From the NCBI GenBank assembly GCA_023954745.1, contig JAGSHC010000014.1, positions 1 to 52,684 of the forward strand: a DNA stretch of 52,684 bases. Direction: 5' to 3'. Shown here piece by piece: positions 687 through 28,695 of this stretch (its first letter is position 1; each line of letters begins with the position of its first letter). A program made the translations under genes and the position numbers. Under the pieces are notes generated by a model. That model was not told the origin of the DNA and did not search any database. It worked only from the letters and a program-made list of their open reading frames with translations. This DNA comes from Deltaproteobacteria bacterium. Its GTDB lineage: Bacteria > Myxococcota_A > UBA796 > UBA9615.

Positions 687-765
687 AGCGGTGGGTCCAC
701 GCGTCCAGCGGTGGGTCCACGTGTCCAGGTGCCCGGCGGCGGGTCCAGGTGCCCGGCGGCGTCTA
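687..765. repeat. 20 bp tandem repeat, four units in two subtypes
   Basis: Units at 687-706 and 707-726 read AGCGGTGGGTCCACGCGTCC and differ by one base. Units at 727-746 and 747-765 read AGGTGCCCGGCGGC followed by GGTCC or GTCTA. The period is 20 throughout. The array sits between the convergent leftmost gene and the JAB gene and its last unit contains the JAB stop codon. No U-tract follows, so it is not an obvious intrinsic terminator. The 205 bp between the two genes otherwise holds only this array and the 551-619 repeats. Confidence 0.6.
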
Positions 766-3657
766 GTTGCAGCTGCCGCTGACGAACGCGCCCTGCTTCT
801 GCACCTTCGGCGCGCGGCTCTGATTGCCGGCGGCGTCAAGAGTCACCGTGATGGTGAAGCAGGCGTTGCTCCCGGGCTCGTAGAGGCCGGTGGTCTCTGG
901 GATCGTGTACTTGGCGGGGACGCGCACTGCGATGTTCTCGTCGCTGCCCGTGTAGCTGAAGTTCAGCTGCATGGGCTCGCCCCCGAACTGGACGTTGGCC
1001 CAGCGCGAGCTGTTTCCGCTGCCGCAACTTCCCTGCGCGAACGCGTCCCGCTCGGCGAACGTCTTCCGGCCGCCCTTCGGGTTCACCGAGAACTCGCCGA
1101 CGACATCGTTGGTGGTCTCCCCAGCCTTGGCGCCAAGGAGCGGCTCGCCGTCCTCACGCTTCGCCATGACGCACAACCGATGCTCGATGGAATCCACCGT
1201 GCCTTCGCCCCGCAACGTGACGTCCAGCGTCAGCGGCGCACTCTTGTCCGGCGGTCGCAAGCTGATGGTCACCTTCGGCGCGTCGCCCTCGAGACCCGTG
1301 ACCTTGGCGTTCAAGGCCGGGGTCTTCATCACCTCGCCGATCGCCGGGGCCAGGTTCGTCTGGGAGCTCTTGAAGAGCACCGACGACGAGCTGCCACGCC
1401 CCAGCGCGCGTGAGCCCGCCTTCACCGACACCGTCCAGGCACCCGTGCCATCGCCGTCGATGAAGAGCGGAGCGGTAAACGCCAGGCGGGCGCGGTCGTA
1501 AACGGCGGCGTGCCGATCATCTCCGCTGGCCTTCCAGTGGAAGGTCGGAGCGCCCACCGGAGGCGGGTCCTGGGGGAGGTCGCCCCCCTCCGAGCCCTCG
1601 TCTTCGGGCTCTCCGCCAGTCCCCGAGAGCAGAATCTCAGACGTGCGGCGCAAGGGCGCCCACTCGTCTCCACCGGCCAACTCGGCCCCGCGCGGGAGCA
1701 GGGTCAGAGTCGCTCGGAAGTCGCTGCCATCGCCCCAGAAGTCGGTCCAGCGCTCCGACTCGGTCGACACGCTGAAGACCCAGTCGGAGCCCTCCTTGCT
1801 GCGCTCGAGACGAACCTTCGGTCGGTCCTGACTGACCTTGGGAAGCAGCCATGCCTCCAGGGGCTGAAACGTTGCCGCGTCGTAGGCGGGCAAGCGCTTC
1901 ACCCTGACGAGAGCGGCCACGCCACCGTCCGGCCCCAAGGGGGAACAGGTCTGGGTGGGGTTCCAGCCGGCGCCGCAACCGGTGATGGAGAACTCGTACG
2001 GTTCTCCCTCGATCTGGACGGGCTCGGTGGCCCCAGCGCCCGCTTCGGGCGACTCCTCCACTTCGCTGCCGCCGAGGAACACGAGGAGCGCGCCGATGAG
2101 CACCAAGGCCACGACGCCAACCCCCAGGAGCAGGAGCGGGACACCGCCGGACGCCTGCTTGTCCTCGTCGTCGTCTTCGACCGCATCCCAGTCGGTGCCG
2201 GTCGTCGTCGGATCGACGTAGTTGCCGCGCTGACTCGCCGGTGCCGCCGCGGACGGCGGTCGCGCCGCCTCCTTTTCCCGCTTGGCCTTCTCGTCCTGAG
2301 CCACCTTGAGCGCTCCCCAGGCGGGGGGCTTCAAGCACGGTTCATCGTCGATGTTGAAGATCGGGCCATCGACGGGCTCGTACCGCTCGTTTGCGCTCAT
2401 GGCCGGCGCCGCGAGGGCACGCATGGACATCAGCGGCACCGGACGCGAGGTCTTGTGCTGGGCGAACACCTGGAAGAACAGCGTGTCGTCCTCGATGCCC
2501 GGGTAGAGAGCGATCCCCACCTGGAACGGCACCTGATCGAGGTCGTAGCCCACCTCACCGAGGAGCAACGCGATCCGAATGTTGTGCTCGATGGGGTCGT
2601 ACGCGTCCCCACGACGGAACCGGTGGGGCGACACGATGCGCACCACGCCGAGGATCTTCTGCTCGCTGTGCGCGGGGAACGCCTCGGCCATGAAGCGCAG
2701 GGCCCCAAGGATGTCCGCGCGCTCTTGATCAGGACCATCCCCCATCGTTCCCAGGAAGCGAACCCGGTTGATGGTGATGTGGTTGTCCTTGGTCTTCGTG
2801 CCGAGAAGCACCGCGATGCGGTCCTGCTTCGTCTCCACGACCGACGCAGCCATGCCCTCGAGGATCGCGAGTACGGGACCTTCGGAGGGGTCCTCGCCCA
2901 GCGTCAGCCAGTCGGGATCTTCCATCCGGACCACGCCGAGCTGGGTGATCTCCGGTTTGCTTGAGACCGTGAGGGATGCTGCGTCCTCGGTGTCGTCGCC
3001 TTCACCTTCGTAGACGCCGTCAGCCTCTACCGATTGAAACCCCCAGGGAAGGACACGCCCGACGTCCTGCCCCTTGGGCACGCCGTAGAGACGCAGCCCA
3101 GGCAGGAGTGGTGTCCCTCCCCCTCGATTACAGAAGAACCCGACCGCGGTCTGGTCCGTGCCGGCCTTCGGGGCGAGCACCAGGGCGAATTGATACGGAC
3201 GCGCGAAGTCGCGGTGTGTCCGGAGGTCGTAGCGGCTGAGGAACACCGCCATGTTGGGGTGGGTGTGGTACCAGCCGAGAAGAAGGAGCTCTTCCCCAGC
3301 CTTTTGGCTGAGCTCCTCCATCTGGTCGATGAGGTCATCCCACACCGAGTAGCTGAACTTGAAGTGCACGGGACTGCTGTCTTCATCCCGAGCAACCGCA
3401 ATGTGGCTGACCTTGATGATTTGGCTGTCTGCACTTCGCGTACCGAGGAGAATGCCCGCGACCTCGAGGTCGACTTCGATGGACCGTTGCGCTTCGAACT
3501 GAAGTCGCTTTGCCACCGCCCACTCGAGGTAGATGGTGGGCATGGCCGGGTCGACGTCGGACTCGGGTACGGATCCAGCCCAGGTGAAGCCCTCCGGCAC
3601 GTCAAAGTGCTCGGCAACTTCACTGCTGTCCTCGGCGAAGAAGACCGGTTCGTCCAT
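763..3657 (-). CDS. Membrane-anchored tandem JAB/JAMM metalloprotease (candidate deubiquitinase)
   Basis: A ~964-residue protein numbered here from ATG 3657; GTG 3672 would add five residues. Residues ~40-205 form a JAB/MPN domain with a complete JAMM zinc site: E65, H131-T-H133-P, S141 and D144 (HxHP-x6-S-x2-D). Residues ~260-400 repeat the fold (AVLLGTKTKDN matching GILLGTRSADS, ILGVVRIVSP matching LLGWYHTHP), but the metal histidines are lost, so this half is probably a pseudo-enzyme. A charged linker leads to one membrane span at ~506-528, and ~435 beta-rich residues with several Cys follow, probably periplasmic. JAB proteases remove ubiquitin-like modifiers or trim their C termini, and a Ubl/E1/E2 set lies 11 kb away. 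The gene is divergent from the lytic transglycosylase gene across 191 bp. Substrate and the role of the C-terminal region are unknown. Confidence 0.88.
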   Translation of the reverse strand: MDEPVFFAEDSSEVAEHFDVPEGFTWAGSVPESDVDPAMPTIYLEWAVAKRLQFEAQRSIEVDLEVAGILLGTRSADSQIIKVSHIAVARDEDSSPVHFKFSYSVWDDLIDQMEELSQKAGEELLLLGWYHTHPNMAVFLSRYDLRTHRDFARPYQFALVLAPKAGTDQTAVGFFCNRGGGTPLLPGLRLYGVPKGQDVGRVLPWGFQSVEADGVYEGEGDDTEDAASLTVSSKPEITQLGVVRMEDPDWLTLGEDPSEGPVLAILEGMAASVVETKQDRIAVLLGTKTKDNHITINRVRFLGTMGDGPDQERADILGALRFMAEAFPAHSEQKILGVVRIVSPHRFRRGDAYDPIEHNIRIALLLGEVGYDLDQVPFQVGIALYPGIEDDTLFFQVFAQHKTSRPVPLMSMRALAAPAMSANERYEPVDGPIFNIDDEPCLKPPAWGALKVAQDEKAKREKEAARPPSAAAPASQRGNYVDPTTTGTDWDAVEDDDEDKQASGGVPLLLLGVGVVALVLIGALLVFLGGSEVEESPEAGAGATEPVQIEGEPYEFSITGCGAGWNPTQTCSPLGPDGGVAALVRVKRLPAYDAATFQPLEAWLLPKVSQDRPKVRLERSKEGSDWVFSVSTESERWTDFWGDGSDFRATLTLLPRGAELAGGDEWAPLRRTSEILLSGTGGEPEDEGSEGGDLPQDPPPVGAPTFHWKASGDDRHAAVYDRARLAFTAPLFIDGDGTGAWTVSVKAGSRALGRGSSSSVLFKSSQTNLAPAIGEVMKTPALNAKVTGLEGDAPKVTISLRPPDKSAPLTLDVTLRGEGTVDSIEHRLCVMAKREDGEPLLGAKAGETTNDVVGEFSVNPKGGRKTFAERDAFAQGSCGSGNSSRWANVQFGGEPMQLNFSYTGSDENIAVRVPAKYTIPETTGLYEPGSNACFTITVTLDAAGNQSRAPKVQKQGAFVSGSCN

Positions 3658-3848: not shown

Positions 3849-5573
3849 ATGCCTGATCGCATTCGCTTCACTCTGGTCGAAGACGGAATGGACATCCGTT
3901 CCTACGACTTCGACACAGAGACCATCCAGATCGGTTGCGATCCGTCGCGCGGCGACAATCTGATGATCGAGTTGCCGCAGGGCAAGACCCACGTCCGCGC
4001 GATGGTCATTCGAAGCGATGACTACGTCGAGTTCGAGGTTCGTGGTGGGCCGGTGTTTCTTCAGGGATCGCGCCTCGACGAGGGCGACGTCGCCGAGTTG
4101 AACGTCGGCGACATGCTGATCTTCGGCAGCAAGGCCGACGGTCCGAAGCTCCGCTTCGAGCACGCCAAGGAGGCCGAGCTCGTCCTCGACGATGTCGCCG
4201 ACTGGGGCATCAAGTCCGGCAAGAAGAAGAAGAAGCGTTCCCAGGCCGCCGAAGACGACCTGATGTTCGAGGAGGAGGTCGACAAGTACGCCGGAAAGAA
4301 CGTCTGGCAGAAGTACCTCATCTGGTACCGCGAGCAGTACGCGAAGTTCGCGGGGTGGCGCAAGAAGGCCGCGCGCGTGAAGTACTGGGTCGGCCTGGTG
4401 CAGATGATCGGCAAGAAGGCTCAGGGGTTTGTGGGCATCGGCCTCGCCCTCGGCGCAGGCGCGATCGGCACGTACACGCAGTACACCGCCAAGGCCCAAG
4501 CGCTGATGAACGCGGACAAGGCGGTGGAGAAGGCCGAGGTCGCCGTCGACGGCGAGAAGGCAGCGCAGGAAGCCACCAAGGAGATCAAGGAGCAGATGGC
4601 CCAGTGCGGTTGCGAGGGCGCCGTGGGCACCAGCGCGGCCGCCATCGCCACCGCGGACGCGGTCCTCGACCGCTTCGGCGCAGAGAAGTCCCTCAACGTG
4701 GACCGCACCACGTTCTGGCCCAACAAGCAGTCCGTGTCCTACGCCTCGATCCTCGGCGGGCACTACAACGCGGCCAACAAGAACCGCACCACGCTGCCGA
4801 AGACCATCGACCGGGTCTGCTCAGCGTCCGGCGACAAGGACCGCATGAACCGCGCGGTCAACAAGGCGCTCGAATACAACCTGCACGAGGCCTACCTGTT
4901 CGTTCCGTTTGTGGAGTCGTACTGGTGCGAGCTCGCTGTGTCCCACACCGGGCCGCGCGGGATGATGCAGTTCACGAGGAACACCGCGAAAGCAGCCTGG
5001 AACAAGGTCGACAGCAGCCAGGCGGAGATTCCGAACTACGACTGGACGATGCATCGAGACTGGCTCATCGGTCTCGCCAAGCAGCGCGGCTACCGCGGCT
5101 ACTACGACCTGCTCGCCAACTGCAAGTCCACGGACCGCGCCGCCTACAAGGAGCACTTCTACCCAGGGCCCGGCAACGACAAGTACCCCAAGCGCCTCGA
5201 CCCGCGGGACCCGCGCACCGACTGGGAGTCGTCGACGGACGCGGCGGTCGCGTGGCTGGCCTCGTTGCACGACACCTACAAGTCGCGTGGCTTCGGCGAG
5301 TTCGACTCGATCCTCCTCGCCATGAGCGCTTACAACCAGGGCGAAGGCGAAGTGAACAGCTGGATCAACCTCGCGAAGGCCAACTACAAGCGCGACAACG
5401 CGTCGGCGCTCACCTTCCCGGAGATCCTCGGCGGAGCGGTGAAGAAGCTCGAGACGACGCCCGACGCCGAGAAGCAGCGACAGATCAAGGAGGGCATGCG
5501 TTACGCGCCCTCGATCATCGGCGCCTACCTCGCCGCCGCTCCCATGCTCGACGAGCGCAACTGCCGCAACTAG
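3849..5573 (+). CDS. FHA-like / transmembrane / SLT lytic transglycosylase fusion
   Basis: 574 residues from ATG 3849, preceded by a GAGGGA-type RBS. Residues 1-105 are a beta-rich FHA-like domain (IQIGCDPSRGDNLMI); the usual GR and SxxH phosphothreonine-binding signatures are weak, so phosphopeptide binding is uncertain. A Lys tract (123-130) and basic helices precede a membrane segment at ~181-207 and an Ala/Glu-rich coiled-coil-like stalk (~215-255). Residues ~335-510 form an SLT lytic transglycosylase domain with catalytic E356 in FVESYW, GPRGMMQF (368-375) and AYNQG (494-498). The expected topology is FHA in the cytoplasm and muramidase in the periplasm, where it would cleave peptidoglycan. 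Next to a CIS locus this suits opening the wall at a docking or firing site. That role is inferred; enzyme class is clear. Confidence 0.85.
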   Translation: MPDRIRFTLVEDGMDIRSYDFDTETIQIGCDPSRGDNLMIELPQGKTHVRAMVIRSDDYVEFEVRGGPVFLQGSRLDEGDVAELNVGDMLIFGSKADGPKLRFEHAKEAELVLDDVADWGIKSGKKKKKRSQAAEDDLMFEEEVDKYAGKNVWQKYLIWYREQYAKFAGWRKKAARVKYWVGLVQMIGKKAQGFVGIGLALGAGAIGTYTQYTAKAQALMNADKAVEKAEVAVDGEKAAQEATKEIKEQMAQCGCEGAVGTSAAAIATADAVLDRFGAEKSLNVDRTTFWPNKQSVSYASILGGHYNAANKNRTTLPKTIDRVCSASGDKDRMNRAVNKALEYNLHEAYLFVPFVESYWCELAVSHTGPRGMMQFTRNTAKAAWNKVDSSQAEIPNYDWTMHRDWLIGLAKQRGYRGYYDLLANCKSTDRAAYKEHFYPGPGNDKYPKRLDPRDPRTDWESSTDAAVAWLASLHDTYKSRGFGEFDSILLAMSAYNQGEGEVNSWINLAKANYKRDNASALTFPEILGGAVKKLETTPDAEKQRQIKEGMRYAPSIIGAYLAAAPMLDERNCRN

Positions 5574-14318: not shown

Positions 14319-14939
14319 CTACTCGTCGTCGTCCTCGCCCATGTCGAACGACATGCCGCCGCCCTCGTAGTAGAAGACCCGGAAGTTCTCGATCTCGTCG
14401 GCGTGGTTGTACGCCCAGCCCGCAGCATCCGGGTTGAGGTAGTCGCCAATCTCGACGCGCTTGTAGAAGTTATCGGGGTTCTCGTGGATGTCCGCCCAGG
14501 ACAACACGCCCATCAGCATCTCAGCGACGTCCGTGAGGTGGACCGTGAGGTCCCACGTGCGGTCGTTCACGTAGCAGACGTACCCGTCGTTGGGGCTCAC
14601 GTTGGGGTGCCAGATGTCCGAGCTCGCGTAGATCTCGGGCTTCACCACCGGGTAGGCCTCAGACAGGTAGATGTCGAAGCTCACGTCCTCGTTGATCGGA
14701 AAGTGATCGAACGGGAAGTTCTTGAGCCGCACCTTCACCGTCGGCGTACCGATCGTGGGCTTCTTGAACGTGAACCGATACTTGTACGGCAGGGCTTCTT
14801 CGCCCCAGGTGAAGTCCAGGGGCTCCACCTCCACTTCTTCCTGCTCCACCATGAACTGCTGGAGCATGTCCCACTCGGTCTCGAGCCGAGCCATGACGAA
14901 CTTGCCGTCGCCCGTGGGCTTCGTCTTCTTGCCTGCCAT
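14319..14939 (-). CDS. E2 ubiquitin-conjugating (UBC-fold) enzyme
   Basis: 206 residues from ATG 14939, which has GAGGAG seven bases upstream; an in-frame ATG at 14954 overlaps that RBS and is less likely. UBC-fold features run in order: a strand-rich N half with RLKNFPFDHFPINEDVSF, then YPVVKPEIYASSDIWHPNV with the HPN motif (111-113), the candidate catalytic C122 in GYVCYVND, the following Trp (TWDLTVHLTDV) and helix AEMLMGVL. E2 enzymes take the modifier from E1 as a thioester and pass it to a target, alone or with an E3. An acidic tail (GEDDDE) ends the protein. It is the last gene of the Ubl cassette, just upstream of a terminator. Confidence 0.9.
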   Translation of the reverse strand: MAGKKTKPTGDGKFVMARLETEWDMLQQFMVEQEEVEVEPLDFTWGEEALPYKYRFTFKKPTIGTPTVKVRLKNFPFDHFPINEDVSFDIYLSEAYPVVKPEIYASSDIWHPNVSPNDGYVCYVNDRTWDLTVHLTDVAEMLMGVLSWADIHENPDNFYKRVEIGDYLNPDAAGWAYNHADEIENFRVFYYEGGGMSFDMGEDDDE

Positions 14940-14990: not shown

Positions 14991-15281
14991 CTAGGCGGGG
15001 ATGTGCTCCATGACGAGCCGAATCTCATCACCCTCTTCGACCCCTGCGTCTCCGAGAGACTCATTGGGCTGAAGGATGTAGTGCTTGCGGCCGCCGGAAC
15101 GACGATCGGGCACCGAGATCTTGAACGTGCGGGGCTGGCCCTGCTCGTCCGTCATGTTCATCTTGAGCTGACGCGCGAGGAACGGCGCGAGCTTGCTCGC
15201 GGGCACGTTTGCGCTGATCTTCACAGTACGGTTCGTACCACCGGTCGGCTCCTTGAGCCGCACCTTGACTACGTCTGACAC
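14991..15281 (-). CDS. Ubiquitin-like beta-grasp protein lacking a C-terminal diglycine
   Basis: 96 residues from GTG 15281. The pattern is that of a ubiquitin/YukD-type beta-grasp: VKVRLKEPTGGTNRTVKIS hairpin, helix PASKLAPFLARQLKM, then strands around RTFKISV, HYILQP, the SLGDAGVEEGDEI turn typical of ubiquitin-like folds, and RLVMEHIPA. The chain ends in Ala with no GG, and no Gly within the last eight residues. It is therefore either a modifier that uses a non-Gly terminus, one that acts non-covalently, or one processed differently. It lies directly upstream of E2 (about 50 bp) and downstream of the RING-like gene (about 120 bp), so its role in this conjugation set is strongly implied by context. 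Confidence 0.85.
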   Translation of the reverse strand: MSDVVKVRLKEPTGGTNRTVKISANVPASKLAPFLARQLKMNMTDEQGQPRTFKISVPDRRSGGRKHYILQPNESLGDAGVEEGDEIRLVMEHIPA

Positions 15282-15404: not shown

Positions 15405-16091
15405 CTAGGGCTTGCTCATTCCCTTTAGATCACGCTCACGAAGCGGCTGGTAGCAGCGTCGGCAGCGTCCTTCGAGCAGGTGCACGTAGTCTTTGAGATA
15501 GACCGCGTGACAGACCTGCGTGACGTTCATTCGGTTGTGACAGACGACGTACACGTCGTGGTCACGGTTCACGACCTGGTTCGTGAGAAGACAGACGAGC
15601 TCTTCTGGCTCCGTCGTGTAGTCGACGTCGTCCTCTTCTTCCTCATCTTCGAGGTCATCGGTGTCCTCGTCCGGGGCGGCTTGCTCCGTCACCCGGTAGT
15701 GGGCGAGAGAGAGCGCTCCGACGAAGGCACCAACGAAGCCGATTCCCATGCCCATGAGCATCGGAACCATGTTCGCCGAGGGGTCGAACGTGGATCCGGC
15801 GGACTCGATGGAGAGCTTCGCCGCCACCACCGAGATCACCCACATCAGCAAGAAGATCCCGCCTCCGGCGCCGCCAACAGCCCCCACGCCTCCGCGATCA
15901 CGCCCGAAGATCATGCGACTGGTGGCTCCGCTGAGGAGCCCCACTGCGAGGGGCGCGACGAGCGCCAGGCCCAAGAAGGTGCTGCCGTCACGGAACTGCA
16001 CGAGCCCCCACACGACACTGAACACCGCGAGCACGACCAACGTGGGGAAGAAGTCCCCCGGAGATCCCCATCCGGGACTGCCCTTAGCCAC
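15405..16091 (-). CDS. Four-helix membrane protein with C-terminal RING-like zinc domain (candidate E3)
   Basis: 228 residues from GTG 16091. Four membrane spans at ~14-33, 39-57, 79-95 and 109-130 place both termini on the same side, presumably cytoplasmic. An acidic linker (~140-165, EEEEDD) leads to a Cys/His-rich end with C167, C184, H185, C194, H195, H204, C210 and C213. The VYVVCHNRMN, VCHAVYL and CRRCYQPL elements resemble the second half of a RING/treble-clef domain, but the first CxxC pair has only one Cys, so at most one zinc site is likely intact. RING proteins bring charged E2 to targets. The start overlaps the E1 stop and uses a perfect SD. E3 function is inferred from context. 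Confidence 0.72.
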   Translation of the reverse strand: MAKGSPGWGSPGDFFPTLVVLAVFSVVWGLVQFRDGSTFLGLALVAPLAVGLLSGATSRMIFGRDRGGVGAVGGAGGGIFLLMWVISVVAAKLSIESAGSTFDPSANMVPMLMGMGIGFVGAFVGALSLAHYRVTEQAAPDEDTDDLEDEEEEDDVDYTTEPEELVCLLTNQVVNRDHDVYVVCHNRMNVTQVCHAVYLKDYVHLLEGRCRRCYQPLRERDLKGMSKP

Positions 16092-17436
16092 CCATCACCT
16101 CCTTCTCATCCCCGGTCAACTCGATCGCGATGCGCTTGCCGCCCCCATGCACCTGGAAGATCTGGAGCTTCGGGAAGCCCATCTTCGCCAGGGGCTCGTC
16201 CACGAACTTCTCGAAGACGCGCAGGGCCCGCTTGTACTCGGGTCGCGCCTCCTCGTTGTCGCACGCGGGACAGCTCAGGTCCAGGTTGCGGACGCGACGC
16301 GGCGTGTATCGCTCGCTGCGGGTCTTGCACCGATGACAGTACAGCTCGTAGATGAAGTCGTATCCGAGCGGGATGGCGACCTTCTTGATGTCGACTCCGA
16401 GGAGCTCGGCACCCTTCTGCAGCAGCTCGCGGAGCGTCGTCCCCTCCGCTGTGAAGTCCGTCTCTTCGTGCACCGGCCCCCAGTGGTCGTGACCAGGGCA
16501 GCCTTCGAGCTGCCGACGAGTCTGGACCTCGAGGTAGGGAGCACCTCCGCCAAAGTAGAACTGGTGCCCGTTGGGCATCTCCAACTGCTCGGGCGGCTCC
16601 TCCATCTTGTTCTGGTGGAGAAGCTTGAGGGCTTCCTGGGCCATCATCGCGCCGGACATCGCCGCCGCCAGAGGTGACGTCGGCTGGCGATTCATCTCGC
16701 GAATCGCTTCGGCGAGCGGAGCGCAGGTCGGTGCGTAGGGCAGGTGCTGCCGCTGCCGCATCGTCTTGTCCATGGTGCACTCGTAACAAGGACCGCCGTC
16801 GCTGTCCCAGCAGGAGACCCGCCAGCTCAACTCGCCGATGCCAGCGTCCAACCAGGGCTTGCCCAGGGCCGCGCAGATGCGGTTGAAGCCAACCCGCGCG
16901 TCGATGGAGTCCACGACGGACATCATCACATCCATGCGGCGGAAGACCCCGAGGCCGATCTCGTAGCGAATGTCCGCGGAGAGCGGGACCCACTTCGTGT
17001 CGGGCGACATATCGCTCAGCACCTCAGCGGCCACATCGACCTTGGCGCGGCCGATGTGACGGGGCCGGAAGAGAACCGACTTCGCGAGGTTGCTGGTGTC
17101 GATGTCGTCGAAGTCGCAGAACCAGACTTCGCCCACCCCGAGCAGCGCGAGGTTCTTGAGGACCTCGTTCCCCAGGGCGCCGGCGCCAGCGCAGAAGACG
17201 CGCCCCTCGCGGACGATGCCTTCGCGGAAGTGCGCCATCAGCTTGTAGATGGCGAAGCGATCGTTGTTGTCGTACTCCATCCGACGACGCGAGAGGTCGT
17301 CGAACGTCAGGTCGATGACGCCGTCGCTGTCCTTCGTGAAGTGAGCTTCCTCGTCCTCGACGATCTCGTTGCCGTCGTCATCGAGCGCGATGACGATCAC
17401 CTCGACATCGTCTTCTTCCGTGGCCTCGTTGCTCAT
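16084..17436 (-). CDS. E1-like ThiF-family ubiquitin-activating enzyme
   Basis: 450 residues. An acidic N-terminal extension (1-50) precedes DLSRRRMEYDNNDRF and a Rossmann core with GAGALG (84-89), VWFCDFDDIDTSNL (104-117, adenylate-binding Asp and Asn), R/K residues at 124-132 and the VVDSIDAR strand (174-181). CYEC (217-220) is the usual structural CxxC and C238 in PTCAPLA is the best catalytic-Cys candidate. A C-terminal extension of ~130 residues adds a zinc ribbon with CHRC (367-370) and CPAC (389-392). E1 enzymes adenylate the Ubl C terminus and form a thioester before transfer to E2. The gene is 101 bp downstream of a CIS baseplate-like gene on the same strand. The last residues are MGG, encoded by the next gene's SD region. 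Confidence 0.92.
   Translation of the reverse strand: MSNEATEEDDVEVIVIALDDDGNEIVEDEEAHFTKDSDGVIDLTFDDLSRRRMEYDNNDRFAIYKLMAHFREGIVREGRVFCAGAGALGNEVLKNLALLGVGEVWFCDFDDIDTSNLAKSVLFRPRHIGRAKVDVAAEVLSDMSPDTKWVPLSADIRYEIGLGVFRRMDVMMSVVDSIDARVGFNRICAALGKPWLDAGIGELSWRVSCWDSDGGPCYECTMDKTMRQRQHLPYAPTCAPLAEAIREMNRQPTSPLAAAMSGAMMAQEALKLLHQNKMEEPPEQLEMPNGHQFYFGGGAPYLEVQTRRQLEGCPGHDHWGPVHEETDFTAEGTTLRELLQKGAELLGVDIKKVAIPLGYDFIYELYCHRCKTRSERYTPRRVRNLDLSCPACDNEEARPEYKRALRVFEKFVDEPLAKMGFPKLQIFQVHGGGKRIAIELTGDEKEVMGG
16095..16104 (-). promoter_or_regulatory. Perfect Shine-Dalgarno for the RING-like gene
   Basis: The minus strand reads AAGGAGGTGA, fully complementary to the 16S 3' end, with six bases between GGAGG and GTG 16091. 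It lies within the last codons of the E1 gene and encodes Lys-Glu-Val before Met-Gly-Gly-stop. It fixes the start of the membrane RING-like protein and couples it to E1. Confidence 0.75.
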
Positions 17437-17537: not shown

Positions 17538-18500
17538 CTAATCGTCGTCGACCTCTTCGTAGTAGATCCCGCGCACGTTCTCGCGGTCTCGGGTCGCCGC
17601 CTTGATGGCTCCCTGCAGCGCCTTGCTCATCCAGTCGAGGCGCATGTCGAGCTTGTCGGACTTCGGCCGGTTCTGCTGGATCTTCTTGACGGCCTGCCAG
17701 CTCGTCTTGAAGTGAGCGAACAGCCCCTCCTTCGCATTCTCCTTGCGCACGCCGCGCAGGAAGTGCTGCGCGCGCTCCATGAGCAGCGAGAAGATGTCGC
17801 ACATCGCCTCTTCGGAGAGGCCCGACGAACGGAGCCGACTCTCCGACACCACGAGGGTCTGCAGGAAGAGGTGAGCGCGCACGTCTGCGACGGGCTTCTG
17901 CTCGACGAGGAACGCCTTCATGGCCAGCTCGACCTGGGCGTCCACGTACTCCCGCAGGCGACCGCGCAGCGCGTTGAGGTCCTCGGGCTCCGGGCGCGTG
18001 GCCTTGGGCACGTAGCGAAGGTCGACGACGCCGCCCTCCACCTTGCGACCATCGCCGACGCGGATCCGCCCGATCTCGACGCCGTTCCGGATCTCCTTCT
18101 CGTTGAAGACGATCTGGAACGTCTCCTCGGTGCGCGTCTCGTGGCGCTCCGTGGAGTTGTACGCCTGCCGGCGGCTCGTGGGGTCTGCCTGCTCCTTGTA
18201 GACCAGGAAGATCATGTACTTACCGGGCTTGTCGGGCACCGGCTCGCTGCGCTGACCCTCGGGCACGACGATGTCGTTGCCTTCAGCGTCGATGGCGTAG
18301 CCCTCGGTGAACTCCACGACGTCGCCGTCGGCGGTCTGAATGACCTCGGGGCGCAACCCGAAGACCACACCGTGACCGTTCAGGTAGACGTTCGTGAGCC
18401 GGCGCTTCCAGAGCTGGTAGTTCTGCTCATCGGCCAGGTCGATGTCTGACAGGCACATGCCCTCGAAGGGTCGCAGGCGCTTGTTGTAGACGAGCTCCAT
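17538..18500 (-). CDS. CIS baseplate-associated protein, family not recognised
   Basis: 320 residues. The N-terminal part (YNKRLRPFEGMCLSDIDLAD, then EQNYQLWKRRLTNVYLNGHG and VVFGLRPEV) has the pattern of phage/CIS proteins that begin with an EQ.Y..rR.l.n..lhG.GVV.GL element. A beta-rich middle follows (~55-175) and then a helical C half (~180-310) ending YYEEVDDD. It sits between the Afp12/gpI-like gene and E1, with 46 bp to the upstream gene. A baseplate-periphery or adaptor role is likely from context. It is the last CIS structural gene before the Ubl cassette and so a natural candidate for a link between the two. Confidence 0.65.
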   Translation of the reverse strand: MELVYNKRLRPFEGMCLSDIDLADEQNYQLWKRRLTNVYLNGHGVVFGLRPEVIQTADGDVVEFTEGYAIDAEGNDIVVPEGQRSEPVPDKPGKYMIFLVYKEQADPTSRRQAYNSTERHETRTEETFQIVFNEKEIRNGVEIGRIRVGDGRKVEGGVVDLRYVPKATRPEPEDLNALRGRLREYVDAQVELAMKAFLVEQKPVADVRAHLFLQTLVVSESRLRSSGLSEEAMCDIFSLLMERAQHFLRGVRKENAKEGLFAHFKTSWQAVKKIQQNRPKSDKLDMRLDWMSKALQGAIKAATRDRENVRGIYYEEVDDD

Positions 18501-18546
18501 GTCCGTCTCTCCTCAGATGTCGGCTCCGCCGAAGCGGAGCGGTCGG

Positions 18547-19641
18547 TCAGCCTCGAGGGCTGCCCATGGTTGAAGTGTCGTAGGCAAGGCAGGCACGCCC
18601 CAGCACCGAGTTCGGTGTCATCGCGCCGCCACCGGCGAGCACGAGTTCGTTGTGGGCGGCCCCCTGGTCGCGGAAACAGATGACGAAGTTCAGGTGCGCT
18701 GGGCGCTCCTGGCTGGCGATGCGCACGATCTGCTCGAGGAGCTCGGGCAGTCGGTCGCGGTAGCGCCGAAGAAGCACGTCACGCTCCTCCAGCTCGATGG
18801 TGAAGTACTCCTCGCGGGAGAACCGGGGCGAAACGAGGAGGTGCTCCCCCGCGTGAGTCACGTACGGGAGGGACAGCGCCGCCGACTCCGAGGCTGCCTC
18901 GGTGTGGTCGTCCTCGTCGATGGCGTCTGGGGGCCGGCTCAGCGCGCAGTTCCCCAGCTCCATGGGCTGCGGACCCCGCCGTCCCTGAATGGTGATCGTG
19001 AGGCCCGTGAGGGTCTTCACCATCTCGCAGATGCCGCGCACCGTTCCACGCCAGCGGAACAGCTCCACCGCCCGACGCAGGAAGATGCGTCGCCGGGTCA
19101 CCGGGATGCGCTCGTCCAGGGCAAAGCCCAGCCAGCTTCCCAGCCACGGCAGGAACTTGGGATCCGCTCGGACCGGGTCGACGATGGCCTCGCGGCTCGC
19201 AACGCGACTGACCGTGTGGTGGTTCAGGGTCTGGAAGACGAGGAGGAAGCGGCGCAGGAAGTCGACGTCCATCGACCCGGGACCGCCGCCCTCGCGCTGC
19301 ATCCCTCGGCTGTAGACCGCCGGGAGGAACTTGCCGTACCCCTCGGTCGCCACGAGGAGACTGATGCGGTCGCGCGCCTCGAGGCTGAAGTAGCGCAGAC
19401 GCTGCTCCCCGCGCTGGAAGAGCACGGTGTCATCCTCGGGGTCGAGGCTGATCGTCGTGGGCTGACTGCCGCCGTGCGGCCGCACCTTGACGCCGATGAC
19501 GCGTCCCTCGAGGTGCCGCCGACGCTCGGTCACGTACTCCACCCGACAGGGATTCCCCAGCACATGGCGCACGATGGCCGCGCCGGCCTCGCCGTCGAGC
19601 CGTTCCCGCAGGATCTGGGTCAGCGTCTGGAGATCGCTCAC
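18547..19641 (-). CDS. Baseplate protein, phage tail protein I / Afp12-like
   Basis: 364 residues. The diagnostic stretch is FLPWLGSWLGFALDERIPVT, RRRIFLRRAVELFRWRGTVR, GICEMVKTLTGL (~165-225), the conserved core of gpI-like/TIGR02242-type tail proteins found in Afp/PVC-type systems. Upstream, FLRRFLLVFQTLNHH and AVYSRG are also family features. In contractile machines this protein is part of the baseplate wedge and works with the gpJ-like protein. It lies 6 bp after the Afp11-like gene, consistent with co-translation. Confidence 0.85.
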   Translation of the reverse strand: MSDLQTLTQILRERLDGEAGAAIVRHVLGNPCRVEYVTERRRHLEGRVIGVKVRPHGGSQPTTISLDPEDDTVLFQRGEQRLRYFSLEARDRISLLVATEGYGKFLPAVYSRGMQREGGGPGSMDVDFLRRFLLVFQTLNHHTVSRVASREAIVDPVRADPKFLPWLGSWLGFALDERIPVTRRRIFLRRAVELFRWRGTVRGICEMVKTLTGLTITIQGRRGPQPMELGNCALSRPPDAIDEDDHTEAASESAALSLPYVTHAGEHLLVSPRFSREEYFTIELEERDVLLRRYRDRLPELLEQIVRIASQERPAHLNFVICFRDQGAAHNELVLAGGGAMTPNSVLGRACLAYDTSTMGSPRG

Positions 19642-19647
19642 GTGCCG

Positions 19648-22600
19648 CTAGCCCTCATCCACGGCCACTGTGGGCGACGCCGCGAGCACGAACAGCTGCT
19701 TCGGCTTCACCGACCGGGGGTCAAGCCGTCGAGACACTGAAAGGGGTGAACCTGGGTTCGCCGCGCGAGCGACCTCGCAGTGCTCCACGTGCCGAATCTC
19801 GGGAATCTCCGTGATGATGTGCTGCAGGTCCTCCGCGCGAGGGAGCTCCCCAAACGGCCACCCCTCCCCTTCGGTCCCACCGACGTAGGGATCGAGGAAC
19901 CTCACGACCCACTCCTCAGCACGCTCGCGCACGCCCGACGGGTTCGTGCCCGGCTGGAGCCGACACTGGAGTTCCACCGTGATGGGCACGAGCTCGGCCA
20001 TCTCCACCTTGACCTGGGTGTTGATGAGGCAGCGCTCCGACACATAGTCACGCACCGCCCGCAACAGACCGATCTCCTCCGCGTGGGGGATCTCCTTGGT
20101 GCGAAGGTCCCGCTCCGGGAGCACCGTCAGGCGCACGACCCACGGGTCGTCCGCCGGGTCCTTGTAGGCGTGGCAACGGGCAAGGGTCCCCGATGCTTCC
20201 TTGGCGATGAGCTCGAAGTCCTCCGTGGTCACTGCCCGCGAACGCCCGGTCAGGGCCTTCGGCGCGCGGCGCACGAGGTCATCGACGGTCTCCACATCCC
20301 GCCCGCCGGTGGCCGGGAACGGGTTGTTCACCACCACCTGGGACCCGAAGGCCGGGCAGACGCTGATGGACGCTGCCGGGACGTTCCCGCCGAGCCCATC
20401 CGTCGTGTAGTAGTGGTTCGCCACGATGTTGTGGGTCCCCGCCTTGGGGATGATGCCGTGCACGCCATCGCCGAAGCGGATGGTGGACCGCGCAGGGTCG
20501 ACCGCGTACATGGCCGACAGTCGATCGGCGTCCCGCAGATCGTCGTCCTCGGACCAGTCCCAGTCGCGGGTGTCGTCGCCCTCTTCCACGCCCACCGAGA
20601 TGAACTGCTCGTTGTGCAGGTCGTCGGGCAGGGCCTGCTTCAGCTCGGGGTCGAGCACGACCATCGGTCCAAAGAGGAGGTTCACCGTCTGGTTCGGGAT
20701 CCCAAACGCGGAGAAGCGTTCCAGCTCTCGGCGCTGCAGGTTCACCACCTCAGCAGCGTTCAGCATCACGTGGGTGAGGCGCGGGTAGCGAGCCAGGCCC
20801 ATGGCGCCGTCGGCTCGACGCACGCGCTCGGGGACCAGGCAGCGAATCCAGCGCACCCCGTCACCGCCAGAGCTCATGCCGAGCTTCGGAATGATGAACC
20901 GGAGGAAGCCGCTTCCACGGAAGTCAAAGGGCGTGGGCAGGAAGCGAAGCTCCCGCCAGCGGTCCCCGTCGAGGTACTCCCACTTTGCGTCGCGCTCTGC
21001 ACCACGGACGGGCTCCGCCGTCATGCGGTAGTAGACGCTGAACTCCTCGTCGGGCTGCAGCTCCCGGTCGAACTGCATGTACATCCAACGCCCGGGGCGG
21101 TTGATGTCCACCGGTGCGACCCACGGGAAGCTGGTGACCTTGCGACTGCCCTTGCTGACGAGAGGCCGGATCGACGTGAACCGTGGGTTGTTGCGGTTGT
21201 AGTTGACCCCGATGGCCTCGAAGTCGTGCAGCACATGGCTGTACCACTGCGGTCCGTCGCCGGCGGCCTTCTTGCGGCGTGCACCGCGGTGCTGGACCTT
21301 GATCTCGAAGATCTGCGGGAAGTAGTGCACGTCCCGGTTGATGAAGATGTTCGACGCCTCGCGGGCGGCTCCCGACTCACCTTCCTTGTCGACCTTGCTC
21401 GTCTGGGTCTGACCGATGTTCACTTCTTCCTGATCCGTGAGATCGGCTTCGGTGAGGATCAGGCGAATCCAGTACGTCTTGACCCCGTTGAGGGCCACGG
21501 GCGCGATGCCCTTCATCTGCTTTGGCGGCATCAACATCATGCGGACGCGGAAGAACTGGTCCTCCTGGTCGAAGTTCGGCTGCATGTCCGAGAAGTTGAA
21601 CTCGTCGTACTCGTTGCCGTCGTCGTCCATCAGCTTGATGACGCGCCACTTGTGCTTGTCGCGGTACTCGAGCTTGAAGCTGTACCGGTTCAGGTCGTCC
21701 TTGAGACCGGTCGCTCCCGCACGCGGGTACTTCCAGTTCTTGAAGAAGTAGCCCCACTCGAAGGCGACGCGCTCGACCGTGTCCTCGAACACGTCGGAGC
21801 CGATGTACAGCGCCTGGTTCTCTACCGGCTTGAGGTTGAACTCGCTGTTGGAGAACGGCTCGATGGGGACGCTCTCGAGCGATGTCTGCTCGAGGCGGTT
21901 GATGTTCGGGCCCTTGAACAGCTGGAGCTGAATCTGGCGCTCGAGGGACACGACGAGTTCACCCTCGTCGGTGATCGCCGAGAGGTCCACGGCCTTCGTG
22001 CGGCTGGATTGGACCTGCACCGGGGTCGCACAGTCCGCAGGCAGCGGTCCCTGGATGTTCGCGTCGAGTCCACGAATCCGCAGGTTGCGCTCGGGCAGTG
22101 ACGCCCAGCGTCCGTCCTCGGTCAGATAGAACCACTCCATCCCCGGCACGTAGGTCGGGTTCACGGTGAGGCTCAGCCGCGGGAAGCGGATGATGAGCGA
22201 CTCGCGCAGTCCCGGCCGAATGGGCTCGCTGAACGCGTACTGCAGCGTGGTGGTACCCACGGGCTCCACCCGCAGTTCCATCGGGCGGGTGCGACCACGG
22301 CGTGGCTTGAAGCGCCCCTTCGGGTGCTCCCGGATGAGCTCCAGGTAGTACTTCTCGAAGTCGAGAGCGCCGCGAATCCAGAAACGAGAGAAGTTGCGGC
22401 CGGAGTCGGAGACCAGCTCGCGCTCAGCCTCGTCCCAGTCCGCCAGGGCTGGCTGGGGGTCGATGCCCGACGCGAAGAGCTTGCGGTTGTCTTCCCAGGG
22501 CTCCCACTCGCCGGTGGACGTGAGGTGCTCCCAGCGGAAGAACCGCTGCAGCTCGAAGAGCTTCCCGCTCTCGTCGCCCTTGAGCTCGAGATGCAACGTG

Positions 22601-23250
22601 ATCTCGTTGTCCGTATGGAGACGCTCGAGCATGTTGTGCCCGACGTACAGGAACTGGTCGTAGATGTTTGCGTTGAGATTGTCCCGGACGCTGTCCAGCT
22701 CGAGGAGCGGAAGACCTGCGTCGGTCCCAGCAGCTTCGCCCAGCTCGTAGACCGGCGGGCTCTCGGGATCGGGGCTCATGATCCGCTCAGCGGCGAGCCG
22801 CACGCGATCGATGTCGCGCTCCCCGCTGACGTTGAGGCCGAGGATGCGCTCGAGGCGCGGCCCCAGGACCGTGAGGTCGCGGCTGGTCAAGAACCGCACC
22901 TCGTCGACGTCCTCGGTCTGCACGGTGGCGACCTCGGTGAGCTTCGGCACGGTGACCGGGCCCGTCTTGTCGTTGATCTTGCGGAACGAGACAAGGGTGC
23001 GCGCCGGCAGGGCAGCGCCGCGGCGCTCGCCGATGAAGTTCAGGAAGTGGACATAGGTGGCGTCCGGGACGCGGTTCAGACGATAGATCGTCATCTCCGT
23101 CATCCAGGCGAACAGCTGCACCAGGGTCATTCCCGGATCGGCGTCGTTGAAGTTCGTCCACTCGGGGCAGTAGACGGGAATCAACTGCTTCGCCCGCTCG
23201 ACGATGTCCTGGTAGGTCAGGTCGTCGAGATTCGGGGAGTCAATCGGCAT
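19648..23250 (-). CDS. Large baseplate assembly protein, Afp11/gpJ-like
   Basis: 1200 residues from ATG 23250, with GGAG seven bases upstream; an upstream in-frame extension only shadows the gp25 gene. The N terminus has YCPEWTNFNDADPGMTLVQL, FAWMTEMTIYRLNRV and HFLNFIGERRG, the hallmark of TIGR02243-type putative baseplate assembly proteins. The last third contains the baseplate-J-like region (DDLVRRAPKALTGRSRAVTT, EDFELIAKEASG). A long beta-rich centre (~250-800) is larger than in phage gpJ. The protein forms baseplate wedges around the hub. It overlaps the gp25 gene end by 11 bp and precedes the Afp12-like gene. Confidence 0.9.
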   Translation of the reverse strand: MPIDSPNLDDLTYQDIVERAKQLIPVYCPEWTNFNDADPGMTLVQLFAWMTEMTIYRLNRVPDATYVHFLNFIGERRGAALPARTLVSFRKINDKTGPVTVPKLTEVATVQTEDVDEVRFLTSRDLTVLGPRLERILGLNVSGERDIDRVRLAAERIMSPDPESPPVYELGEAAGTDAGLPLLELDSVRDNLNANIYDQFLYVGHNMLERLHTDNEITLHLELKGDESGKLFELQRFFRWEHLTSTGEWEPWEDNRKLFASGIDPQPALADWDEAERELVSDSGRNFSRFWIRGALDFEKYYLELIREHPKGRFKPRRGRTRPMELRVEPVGTTTLQYAFSEPIRPGLRESLIIRFPRLSLTVNPTYVPGMEWFYLTEDGRWASLPERNLRIRGLDANIQGPLPADCATPVQVQSSRTKAVDLSAITDEGELVVSLERQIQLQLFKGPNINRLEQTSLESVPIEPFSNSEFNLKPVENQALYIGSDVFEDTVERVAFEWGYFFKNWKYPRAGATGLKDDLNRYSFKLEYRDKHKWRVIKLMDDDGNEYDEFNFSDMQPNFDQEDQFFRVRMMLMPPKQMKGIAPVALNGVKTYWIRLILTEADLTDQEEVNIGQTQTSKVDKEGESGAAREASNIFINRDVHYFPQIFEIKVQHRGARRKKAAGDGPQWYSHVLHDFEAIGVNYNRNNPRFTSIRPLVSKGSRKVTSFPWVAPVDINRPGRWMYMQFDRELQPDEEFSVYYRMTAEPVRGAERDAKWEYLDGDRWRELRFLPTPFDFRGSGFLRFIIPKLGMSSGGDGVRWIRCLVPERVRRADGAMGLARYPRLTHVMLNAAEVVNLQRRELERFSAFGIPNQTVNLLFGPMVVLDPELKQALPDDLHNEQFISVGVEEGDDTRDWDWSEDDDLRDADRLSAMYAVDPARSTIRFGDGVHGIIPKAGTHNIVANHYYTTDGLGGNVPAASISVCPAFGSQVVVNNPFPATGGRDVETVDDLVRRAPKALTGRSRAVTTEDFELIAKEASGTLARCHAYKDPADDPWVVRLTVLPERDLRTKEIPHAEEIGLLRAVRDYVSERCLINTQVKVEMAELVPITVELQCRLQPGTNPSGVRERAEEWVVRFLDPYVGGTEGEGWPFGELPRAEDLQHIITEIPEIRHVEHCEVARAANPGSPLSVSRRLDPRSVKPKQLFVLAASPTVAVDEG

Positions 23251-23647
23251 CGAAGAACTCCTGCAGGTGCAGCAGCTGCACAAGGTTCTGATGGTTGTTG
23301 GACTTACGGACCACGTAGTCGATGTGAAGACTGATCTGGTTCGGGTTGTCCTTGGAGGGCCTGGCCTCGACCTTTTGAACGTCCACGCGAGGCTCCCAAC
23401 GACTGAGAGCTTCGCGGACCATCATCTCGGCCTCGTGGCGGGTTCGCTGAGAGTTCGTCTTGAACACCAGATCCTGGAGGGCGCAGCCGAACTCAGGGAG
23501 CATCGGACGCTCGCCGGGCTGGGTGTTCAGAATGATGTGCACGCACTGGAGGATGTTCCGCTCGTACTGCGAGAGCGACACGCCAGCCCCATCGGGCCGG
23601 GGTCGAACTGGAAAACTCCATCCTCGTCCAAGGAACTCGCGACTCAA
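23240..23647 (-). CDS. Baseplate wedge protein, gp25/GPW-like (Afp9)
   Basis: 135 residues with the gp25 pattern: LGRGWSFPV at the start, SQYERNILQCVHIILNTQPG, ERPMLPEFGCALQDLVF (the PGER.M.P.FG motif), then helix and strands with VRKSNNHQN. gp25 proteins join sheath to baseplate in T4, T6SS (TssE) and Afp-type machines. It overlaps the start of the Afp11-like gene. The 194 bp between this gene and the gpD-like gene (23648-23841) hold no convincing gene; a PAAR tip protein, often placed here in Afp-type loci, is absent. Confidence 0.9.
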   Translation of the reverse strand: MSREFLGRGWSFPVRPRPDGAGVSLSQYERNILQCVHIILNTQPGERPMLPEFGCALQDLVFKTNSQRTRHEAEMMVREALSRWEPRVDVQKVEARPSKDNPNQISLHIDYVVRKSNNHQNLVQLLHLQEFFDAD

Positions 23648-23841
23648 GACGCCCCTCCTGTGCGCGGGTCAACCGTCGCTGCCTGGCGTGAGCGGCGGCG
23701 AAGGCGGGCAGCAATTTTGCGGGAGATCAGCCCCTCAACGCAAGGCGCCGAGAGCCTTTGTCGGCAGGCCGATTGTCAAGAAGACTCGCACGCCGTGCTG
23801 CGTTTGCCGAAAGGTGGCAGCCGTGGCCGCCGCGAGGAGTG

Positions 23842-24885
23842 CTATTCGCCTGATCCGTCGGTGTTCGAGGAGAACTCGAAATCGGTCACGTAGCCCTTGG
23901 GCCCAATGATGTGACGGGCGGCGTGCACCGTGTATTTCCCGGTGTAGTCGCCGAGGAGCTTCAGGTTGACGGTGGACCCCGGAACGATCGCCGGGTTCCC
24001 CACCGCGCGGCCGCTCCCTTGAAGGAACTGCCCCGCCCGCCCGGAGATCAACGCCTTGGCGAGCGCGTTCGCTTCACCCTGGTTGGCCACCGGAAAGCTC
24101 GTCACATAGGCGGTCGCATCGCCGAACGCCTTCTTCGCCAGGTCGGCTCCGAGATTGTTGCCCCCGCCCTTGCTGACGTCGCCCGTCTTCGCCTTCCCGG
24201 TGATCTCCTTCTTCTGGAACATGTCCCAGCCGCGGACGATCACCTCGGAGACCTGAGAGATGGCGTTGAGGCGCATCCGACAGTCGATGAGCTCAATCTC
24301 GTACCCCAGCTCGATCTCGGCTCCACCCGACCCGGGCTTCTTGAAGCTGATCTTGCTGTCGTCGATGGAGACCTCGTACCCGTTGCGACGGGCCAGTGCC
24401 TTGATGAACTCACCGTTGGAGACGTTGTTCTGCAGGACGTACGGTCGCGTCTCAGAGGTGGAGTCCACGTCTGCCGAGAGGCCTACCTCCGCTGCGATCG
24501 CGGCGACGATGTCGGAGTCCTTGATTTCCTCCCAGAACCGCACCGCAGTGCCGCGCTTGAGGCGATGGAGGCGGTCCATCCCTCGCACCACCAGGGACGC
24601 CGGAGCACCTTCGGGCCAGCGAGGTTCCAGAGCGATGCACTCTCCCTTGAAGAGGGTCTCATTGCCGTCGTCGGCGTGGCCGAGATCGACCTGCATCGTG
24701 TCGCCGATCTTGTGACGGGCGCCGCTCAGCACGCCCCTCGCCACCTCGGCGAACTCGATCGTGCAGGCGTCGATCTTGTCCATCTCCATGTCGACGACGA
24801 TGGCCGAGATCTCCATCCCGTCCGAGGCCTTGATGGTCTCGTCGTCGATCTTGATCGAGAAGTCGGCGTAGTTGTGATCAGCCAT
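23842..24885 (-). CDS. Baseplate hub protein, phage late control gene D (gpD)/VgrG N-terminal type
   Basis: 347 residues from ATG 24885 with CGGAG upstream. The fold pattern of gpD/gp27-like hubs is visible: FSIKIDDETIKASDGMEISA, DMEMDKIDACTIEF, GDTMQVDLGHADD, the LHRLKRGTAVRFWEEIKDSD helix, a DSTSETRPYVLQNNVSNGEF linker and the C-terminal VPGSTVNLKLLGDYTGKYTV, HAARHIIG strand set. It lacks the gp5/gpV spike part, which is encoded separately by two genes at 32-34 kb, so the VgrG-like hub is split here. It lies between the LysM and gp25 genes. Confidence 0.85.
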   Translation of the reverse strand: MADHNYADFSIKIDDETIKASDGMEISAIVVDMEMDKIDACTIEFAEVARGVLSGARHKIGDTMQVDLGHADDGNETLFKGECIALEPRWPEGAPASLVVRGMDRLHRLKRGTAVRFWEEIKDSDIVAAIAAEVGLSADVDSTSETRPYVLQNNVSNGEFIKALARRNGYEVSIDDSKISFKKPGSGGAEIELGYEIELIDCRMRLNAISQVSEVIVRGWDMFQKKEITGKAKTGDVSKGGGNNLGADLAKKAFGDATAYVTSFPVANQGEANALAKALISGRAGQFLQGSGRAVGNPAIVPGSTVNLKLLGDYTGKYTVHAARHIIGPKGYVTDFEFSSNTDGSGE

Positions 24886-24933
24886 CGGATGCTCCGAGTC
24901 TGCGCGTCGGGCCCTTGCCCGGCTCGCCGGGGG

Positions 24934-25584
24934 TCAGCGGATGCGCGGGACGCGGAGGACTGCGCCAGGAGTCAATCCCAGCGGGTCCTCGATGTTGTTC
25001 GCTTCAGCGATGGGACGCCACTTGCTCGGGTCGTCGTACGCCTCGAGCGCGATGGAGTGCAGGGTGTCGCCGGGGCGAACGCGGTGCACCTTCTCGTGGT
25101 CGGGCGACTGAAGCCGGATCCGGTCCTTCTGCTGCTGCTCGGTGGCGTACTCCGTGAGGCTGACCTTCATCTCGGCACGCACAGGCACGCCGTTGCTGTT
25201 GAAGGTCTTGTACGTCGTGCTGAACGAAGTGAGGTTCCAGGTCAGGGTCGCGCCACCCTTGCGGTGGTACCAGGACTTGCCGCCCCAGAAGAACTCGATG
25301 ATCGGCGGACCGTGGGTCTCGTCCTTGACCATCGAGAGTTCCTCGATGCCCTGGGTGATGTCCCGGACGTCGCTGTCGTCTTCGTACGTGTCGAAGAACA
25401 GCGTCATCTCGAGCTTCATCGCCTTGCCGCCCTTCCACTCCACGAGGGGAAGGTCGAGGGTGTGATCACCCTTCTTTTCGGCCCAGTCGGCGGCCTTGCT
25501 CAGTGAGATGGTCTCGGGGTTGAACTGGACCTCATAGTCCCCCCCACCCTTGACCTTGAAGACGGCTTTCTTGAGTGACGACAT
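24934..25584 (-). CDS. CIS tube-initiator/LysM protein (Afp7-like)
   Basis: 216 residues. The N-terminal ~140 residues match the CIS tube protein family (YEVQFNPETISLSKAADWAE, LEMTLFFDTYEDDSDVRDIT, GPPIIEFFWGG). A LysM motif occupies ~165-213 (HRVRPGDTLHSIALEAYDDP ... GLTPGAVLRVP). In Afp/PVC machines this protein joins the first tube ring to the hub. It sits between a tube paralogue and the gpD-like hub gene, the expected order. Confidence 0.88.
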   Translation of the reverse strand: MSSLKKAVFKVKGGGDYEVQFNPETISLSKAADWAEKKGDHTLDLPLVEWKGGKAMKLEMTLFFDTYEDDSDVRDITQGIEELSMVKDETHGPPIIEFFWGGKSWYHRKGGATLTWNLTSFSTTYKTFNSNGVPVRAEMKVSLTEYATEQQQKDRIRLQSPDHEKVHRVRPGDTLHSIALEAYDDPSKWRPIAEANNIEDPLGLTPGAVLRVPRIR

Positions 25585-25631
25585 CGCGGGCTCCTGTTCG
25601 TGGTGCTACGCGTGCGGCGAAGGAGTCCCTT

Positions 25632-26087
25632 TCAGGACTCCTCGACGCCGTGGTGATTGAGAGTGATGGACTCGAACGCGAGTTCGGAGCCGCCAGAGTT
25701 GAAGGACGGGCCTTCCCAGGACTTCGGCCAGGCTTCCTTGAGCTTCCAGCTCTTCAGAGTCGACTGGCGGTCGTCGTCGAGGAGGCGAATGACGACAGTG
25801 CGGCGCAAGCTCTCCTTGCCTCCACCCTTGTCGTTGGTCACGACCTGACGCCACCACTTGTAGAGGGCGCCTTCGGCGTCCACTCCGCGCTTGAGCGTCA
25901 CGGGTCCCCAGGACACCCGTCCAGGTGCCTTGTAGGTGCGGTCGTTCACACCACCTTCTTTGATCTCGAACTCCTCGACATCGCCCTTGATGCCACCGAT
26001 CTCGTTGAACAACGCCTTGACGCCGTCATCGCCGAGTTCGACGTGGAAGTTGAAATTGCCGAAAGGATCGTCGTAGTCCGAAGCCAT
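25632..26087 (-). CDS. Tail tube protein paralogue (gp19/Afp1-5 type), baseplate-proximal
   Basis: 151 residues from ATG 26087, with GGAGG eight bases upstream; the frame extends left but only into the preceding gene. Features of the gp19-like tube fold are FNFHVELGDDG, GGVNDRTYKAPGRVSWGPVT, LKRGVDAEGALYKWWRQVV and RRTVVIRLLDDD. It is more diverged than the three tube genes at 28-30 kb and sits directly before the LysM gene, which suggests it forms a baseplate-proximal tube ring as Afp5 does. Confidence 0.85.
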   Translation of the reverse strand: MASDYDDPFGNFNFHVELGDDGVKALFNEIGGIKGDVEEFEIKEGGVNDRTYKAPGRVSWGPVTLKRGVDAEGALYKWWRQVVTNDKGGGKESLRRTVVIRLLDDDRQSTLKSWKLKEAWPKSWEGPSFNSGGSELAFESITLNHHGVEES

Positions 26088-26104
26088 CGTGTACCTCCGC
26101 CCGC

Positions 26105-27574: not shown

Positions 27575-27625
27575 CCATCCTCCGCCGGGGTTTCATCCCG
27601 GAAAAAAGTGACGGTTCTCCGTCAG

Positions 27626-28149: not shown

Positions 28150-28220
28150 GATCCGGGAAACCTCTCAGCGTCGTCCATTAGGGCCCGAGCACGCCATGCG
28201 CCCGGGCCGCTCCGTAAGAA

Positions 28221-28643: not shown

Positions 28644-28695
28644 GGGTCTCTCCCTCAGGGGCCGGTGCTATCAGCCAGGTGGGGATGGGCTGAAG

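Follow-up and report, generated by a model that had tools for sequence, protein, structure and literature searches.

The locus

Near the start of the window, by which we mean the whole stretch of 52,684 nucleotides analyzed here, lies a gene for a protein in which a JAMM domain is followed by a second MPN domain, a membrane span and a large ectodomain. It is read on the minus strand from an ATG at 3657 to a stop codon ending at 763, and a lytic transglycosylase gene diverges from it.

763..3657, minus strand: tandem MPN+/MPN− JAMM gene, 964 amino acids, arranged as MPN+, MPN−, linker, TM segment and ectodomain
3058..3549, minus strand: MPN+ (JAMM) catalytic domain, residues 37–200 (Pfam JAB, 1.7e-13), with E65, H131, H133, S141 and D144
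2395..2940, minus strand: MPN− (dead) domain, residues 240–421, from AF2 and Foldseek; both histidines absent in 4/4 orthologues covering the domain
2080..2136, minus strand: single transmembrane (TM) helix, residues 508–526 (hydropathy 3.07 over 19 residues)
766..2079, minus strand: ectodomain, residues 527–964, of no known family, with six invariant cysteines
3849..5573, plus strand: SLT lytic transglycosylase protein, divergent from the JAMM gene (C-terminal Pfam SLT, 7.8e-15)

Orthologues of the JAMM protein have overall identities of 43–65% (65% in G001, 44% in G002 and 43–45% in G003), and that of G004 is truncated by the end of its contig. In G001, G002 and G004, and in diverged form in G006, the SLT gene again accompanies the JAB gene. 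By eye the N-terminal region of the SLT protein is FHA-like; Pfam did not confirm the FHA domain suspected there. Elsewhere in the window an HmuY-like protein is encoded at 9307–9801 (Pfam 8.6e-13).

An MPN+ and an MPN− domain in one chain

The first domain contains the residues that define a JAMM/MPN+ protein, with the glutamate, the H-x-H, the serine and the aspartate set in an MPN fold. The Pfam JAB match (E = 1.7e-13) covers residues 68–158 in the numbering of P0001, which begins at a GTG start and runs five residues ahead of the ATG numbering. The initial annotation had assigned the full JAMM site to this copy, and all five of its residues (E65, H131, H133, S141 and D144) are invariant in 5/5 genomes. 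The solved structures closest to it in sequence are those of Rpn11, AMSH and BRCC36, all isopeptidases, and the domain may well cleave isopeptide bonds.

The second domain, predicted to be MPN over approximately residues 250–412, is more divergent. A sequence profile of the domain finds nothing in the PDB, so that its relatives are found by structure only. When both domains were folded together with AF2 the model was weak (pLDDT 60, pTM 0.43), and the second was therefore folded alone. This gave a better model (pLDDT 71, pTM 0.69) in which the order of secondary structure elements fits the MPN fold. Foldseek comparison with the PDB yielded 47 matches at E ≤ 1e-3, and all those listed are MPN-domain proteins or complexes. 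The best are Rpn11, CSN6, Rpn8 and EMC8. Those listed include Rpn11 (4o8x, E = 4.1e-5), NPL4, CSN6, Rpn8 and BRCC36, together with EMC, eIF3 in 43S complexes and a bacterial Ubl-DUB (8tyx). The TM-scores are modest, about 0.4–0.53 on the query, as is perhaps to be expected because the model was built from four sequences. The initial annotation had named structure prediction as the check on this copy, and a fold other than MPN as its refutation; the predicted structure is MPN.

Does the similarity between the two domains exceed chance? Direct hhalign comparison was weak, picking out the ILLGT strand with a local E of 0.002 and a probability of only 14%, and for this reason a shuffle test was added. 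The profile–profile local score lies at z = 6.0, reached by none of 150 column shuffles, and the semiglobal score at z = 2.9, reached by two of 150. In the resulting alignment E65 corresponds to D279, H131 to R340 and D144 to D354, while H133 falls on V342 or S343 depending on the placing of a gap. The Arg and Val originally read in place of the histidines are thus recovered, the latter subject to that gap, and none of the four orthologues covering domain 2 has a metal-ligand histidine pair there. Two weak matches to domain 2 in distant genomes lie in proteins that are not JAB-like, and were taken as chance.

The membrane span and the ectodomain

The other three full-length orthologues also have the TM segment, one of them with a lower score. 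Beyond it lie 438 residues, close to the 435-residue outer region described initially. Overall identity in the ectodomain drops to 30–50% while all five JAMM residues stay invariant, and cysteines 561, 571, 829, 878, 933 and 963 (window numbering) are themselves invariant. An ectodomain profile found no relative among solved structures in the PDB, and Pfam gave one sub-threshold match, to a pilin domain.

The charges flanking the TM helix give no clear positive-inside signal. No signal-peptide-like N terminus was seen in the JAMM protein, and from this and the cysteines we infer that the MPN domains are cytoplasmic and the ectodomain periplasmic. The coupling of outside to inside proposed in the initial annotation would be a reasonable consequence of this topology.

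A putative ubiquitin-like conjugation module beside a contractile injection system

About 10 kb from the JAMM gene, genes for E1, a membrane treble-clef protein, a YukD-like ubiquitin-like protein (Ubl) and E2 lie at the end of the operon of a contractile injection system (CIS). Both the conjugation module and the CIS were missed in the initial annotation.

14319..14939, minus strand: E2-like enzyme, with H-P-N and catalytic Cys122 (Pfam UQ_con, 2.2e-7)
14991..15281, minus strand: YukD-like Ubl, 96 amino acids, ending ...VMEHIPA (Pfam YukD, 1.4e-6)
15405..16034, minus strand: membrane protein with a C-terminal Cys-rich treble-clef/RING-like motif, candidate E3 (Cys pattern, three TM segments)
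16084..17436, minus strand: E1-like ThiF-family activating enzyme (Pfam ThiF, 4.5e-39)
17538..33769, minus strand: CIS operon, encoding CIS13-like, tail I, baseplate J, gp25, hub and LysM tube proteins, and further tubes, two sheaths and two spike proteins

The CIS was assigned from its sheath, tube, gp25, baseplate J and spike genes, leaving aside the AAA+ ATPase and tail terminator. Its operon encodes two sheath proteins, at 26105–27484 and 29966–31642. Separately, G048, of the same class, has a Ubl/E1/JAB locus of its own and a CIS on a different contig (C156 and C343; L023, L101).

Linked genes for an E1-like enzyme, an E2-like enzyme with its active site, a Ubl and a JAB protein are the mark of bacterial Ubl conjugation, and all are present here. 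H111, P112, N113 and C122 of the E2 are invariant in 4/4 sequences. Strong matches to the E2 alignment occur in all six genomes of the family and in G006, which belongs to a different family of the same order; in the other sampled genomes of the phylum the matches are only weak. The candidate E3 (window 15405–16034) matches no Pfam family. When the motif was compared with the eight-ligand cross-brace of RING domains, its counterpart in G006 (L024 12556–13149) showed a full set of zinc ligands, CxxC..C..C..HxxH..CxxC, about half of which the window family has lost.

The Ubl has neither a C-terminal Gly-Gly nor a single Gly, ending -HIPA. Aligned by eye, its last alanine falls where distant Ubls have their terminal glycine, and no extension follows it. 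With a terminal Ala and no Gly-Gly, Ubl conjugation itself is uncertain. The Ubl is nonetheless the most conserved protein compared: the copies of five same-family genomes (G001–G005) match that of the window at 94–99% identity. The corresponding values are 71–82% for the E2 and 64–82% for the E1, and the CIS structural genes, where compared, are also less conserved than the Ubl. A Ubl under near-ubiquitin constraint across same-family genomes of several genera thus occurs together with E1, E2, a candidate E3 and a candidate eraser.

In the window family the JAB gene stands outside the E1/E2/Ubl operon, with about 9–10 kb of other genes between. It lies about 7–10 kb from the E2, Ubl and E1 genes in three same-family genera (G000, G002 and G003), the distance to E2 being 7–9 kb in G002 and G003. 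The arrangement in G006 is tighter: E1, membrane protein, Ubl, E2, SLT (on the opposite strand) and JAMM fall within ~5 kb, and the SLT gene alone separates JAB from E2. The JAMM protein of G006 lacks a TM segment and contains a single MPN domain. The possibility that a small gene beside it encodes a split-off dead MPN was rejected, domain 2 having no match in the G006 genome. More widely, an E1-like match is found in the locus of 37 of 45 distant JAB relatives.

Some of these loci contain other JAB arrangements. A Chloroflexi protein (L047 9335–10444) has an N-terminal region that is FHA-like by eye fused to JAB, with an E1-like gene in the locus. In L041, L042, L053, L057, L059 and L065 the JAB domain follows a long N-terminal region that is E2-like by eye, with FHPHF in most, which suggests E2–JAB fusions; Pfam put no name to this region in the scanned members of the six loci.

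A putative membrane-anchored Ubl deconjugase

What might the JAMM protein do? The domains, the active-site residues, the topology signal, and the linkage and conservation of the genes are read directly from the sequence and the computed model. We think it likely that the protein is an inner-membrane Ubl deconjugase, with the dead MPN as a partner of the Rpn8 type within the same chain. The YukD-like Ubl would be conjugated by E1 and E2, perhaps assisted by the treble-clef membrane protein as E3, and the membrane-anchored JAMM isopeptidase would remove this same Ubl from its conjugates; both the catalysis and the identity of the substrate are inferences. The dead MPN would stand in for a subunit that is otherwise separate (Rpn8, CSN6 or Abraxas), and in that presumed role might hold the active domain in shape or help bind Ubl or substrate. 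Both MPN domains would face the cytoplasm with E1 and E2, and the cysteine-rich ectodomain would face the periplasm, where it could gate or localize the enzyme. The JAMM protein is thus probably the eraser of the neighbouring Ubl tagging system. The word deubiquitinase, used of it in the initial annotation, is supported only indirectly, by way of the putative Ubl/E1/E2 module in the same locus.

The position of the module raises the alternative that it and the JAMM protein serve the CIS. Attachment of the Ubl to a sheath, baseplate, effector or docking component at the inner membrane would then control assembly or firing, and the JAMM protein, with its divergent transglycosylase neighbour, would reset or license the machine. 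The E1–membrane protein–Ubl–E2 set directly follows the last CIS gene in G000, G001, G002 and G006, and in the stretches read from G010, G011 and G058, which have a related CIS, no match to a Ubl-module gene was found past the CIS13-like gene. However, searches of the G003 genome for the sheath, baseplate J and tube proteins found nothing. The junction there is clean and lies on one contig (L019 10954–13636), where a lipoprotein-like gene related to window 33888–34910 runs straight into E1, membrane protein, Ubl and E2. G003 keeps E1, E2, a 96% identical Ubl, and a JAMM protein with all its catalytic residues. Since a CIS is widespread in the class, its absence from G003 is most simply a deletion, and as the module was kept it is not strictly dependent on the CIS. 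In favour of a link with the CIS, a search of G003 did not find the SLT protein either, though it could miss a diverged copy like that of G006. Moreover, strong E2 matches occur in 7/71 genomes of the class, against sheath matches in 68/71. Dependence of the Ubl module and the JAMM protein on the CIS is therefore doubtful, and we consider service to the CIS unlikely. The fuller scheme, in which the CIS is run by its own Ubl cascade and the transmembrane MPN+/MPN− protein reads a periplasmic cue, strips the Ubl from a component at the inner membrane and so licenses assembly or firing, is one we would put forward as speculation. The clean loss of the CIS in one sister genome makes any dependence of the Ubl system on the machine directly testable.

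It is improbable that the JAMM protein, instead of being a deconjugase, acts as an endopeptidase, as a maturase of Ubl precursors or as a scaffold. Processing of precursor Ubls is thought to be the task of certain JAB proteins of phages and bacteria (PMC1779556), BilA is matured by BilC (PMC11354881), and the Ubl of this family has no Gly-Gly. Yet by the alignment made by eye the Ubl stops at the residue matching the terminal Gly of distant Ubls, which leaves nothing to remove; deconjugation is likelier than maturation because the Ubl has no extension past -HIPA. It is more improbable still that domain 2 is a functionless, degenerate remnant of duplication rather than a regulatory partner, for although it has lost its catalytic residues and its G002 and G003 copies share 55–57% identity with that of the window, where domain 1 in these genomes reaches 73–76%, it is full-length in every genome that covers it, has many invariant positions and is clearly more conserved than the ectodomain.

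Comparison with known systems

Rpn11–Rpn8, CSN5–CSN6 and BRCC36–Abraxas/KIAA0157 are eukaryotic MPN+/MPN− heterodimers, in which two chains are paired via helices of their MPN domains. The window protein resembles them in placing an active JAMM domain beside a dead MPN domain. It differs from the two separate chains of the Rpn11–Rpn8 type in that both domains belong to one bacterial polypeptide, which is membrane-anchored and has a large ectodomain. Its gene neighbourhood showed no subunits of a proteasome or signalosome.

Bacterial operons of E1, E2, Ubl and JAB genes have been described by Iyer, Burroughs and Aravind (PMC1779556), and BilABCD (PMC11354881) is among such operons. The window shares with these a JAB encoded with E1-like, E2-like and Ubl genes, and a bacterial Ubl-DUB structure (8tyx) is among the Foldseek matches of domain 2. 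Here, in contrast, the one Ubl is YukD-like and lacks Gly-Gly, a treble-clef membrane protein is encoded, the JAMM protein is an MPN+/MPN− tandem and the locus lies beside a CIS. BilA is a two-domain ISG15-like Ubl, whereas the window Ubl is a single domain of 96 amino acids. Tail clusters of lambdoid phages encode a Ubl (TAPI) and a JAB-NlpC/P60 protein (TAPK) without E1 and E2 (PMC1779556). They likewise link Ubl and JAB to a machine of the phage-tail type, but the window has the full E1/E2 cascade and a CIS, and the JAB of TAPK is fused to NlpC/P60. In a full-text search of a partial literature collection, no title or abstract described a ubiquitin-like system with a contractile injection system, or an MPN+/MPN− tandem architecture.

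How general is the one-chain tandem? Among 379 sampled genomes of the phylum, only those of the window's family yielded an MPN+/MPN− tandem with ectodomain, and a scan of viral contigs gave no relative. The initial annotation had regarded the one-chain tandem with a membrane anchor as unusual. The architecture and the single span hold, but a membrane span is common, being predicted in 21 of the 45 distant JAB relatives. Membrane-anchored JABs of Planctomycetota and Chloroflexota, and of G048 in the same class, similarly have JAB followed by a predicted TM segment, and their loci usually include an E1-like gene. Those looked at have a single JAB, and no dead second MPN was seen in them, the domain scan covering ten JAB proteins among the 45 more distant loci. 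A Tannerellaceae protein (L062 1076–2512) has two JABs in one chain, both with the HTHP motif, and an E1-like gene in its locus. What is particular to the JAMM protein is the predicted dead second copy, confined to this family within the phylum sample. If the dead domain acts as Rpn8 does on Rpn11, the one-chain pair would be a bacterial answer to the problem of the pseudoenzyme partner, in a form that is easy to express and study.
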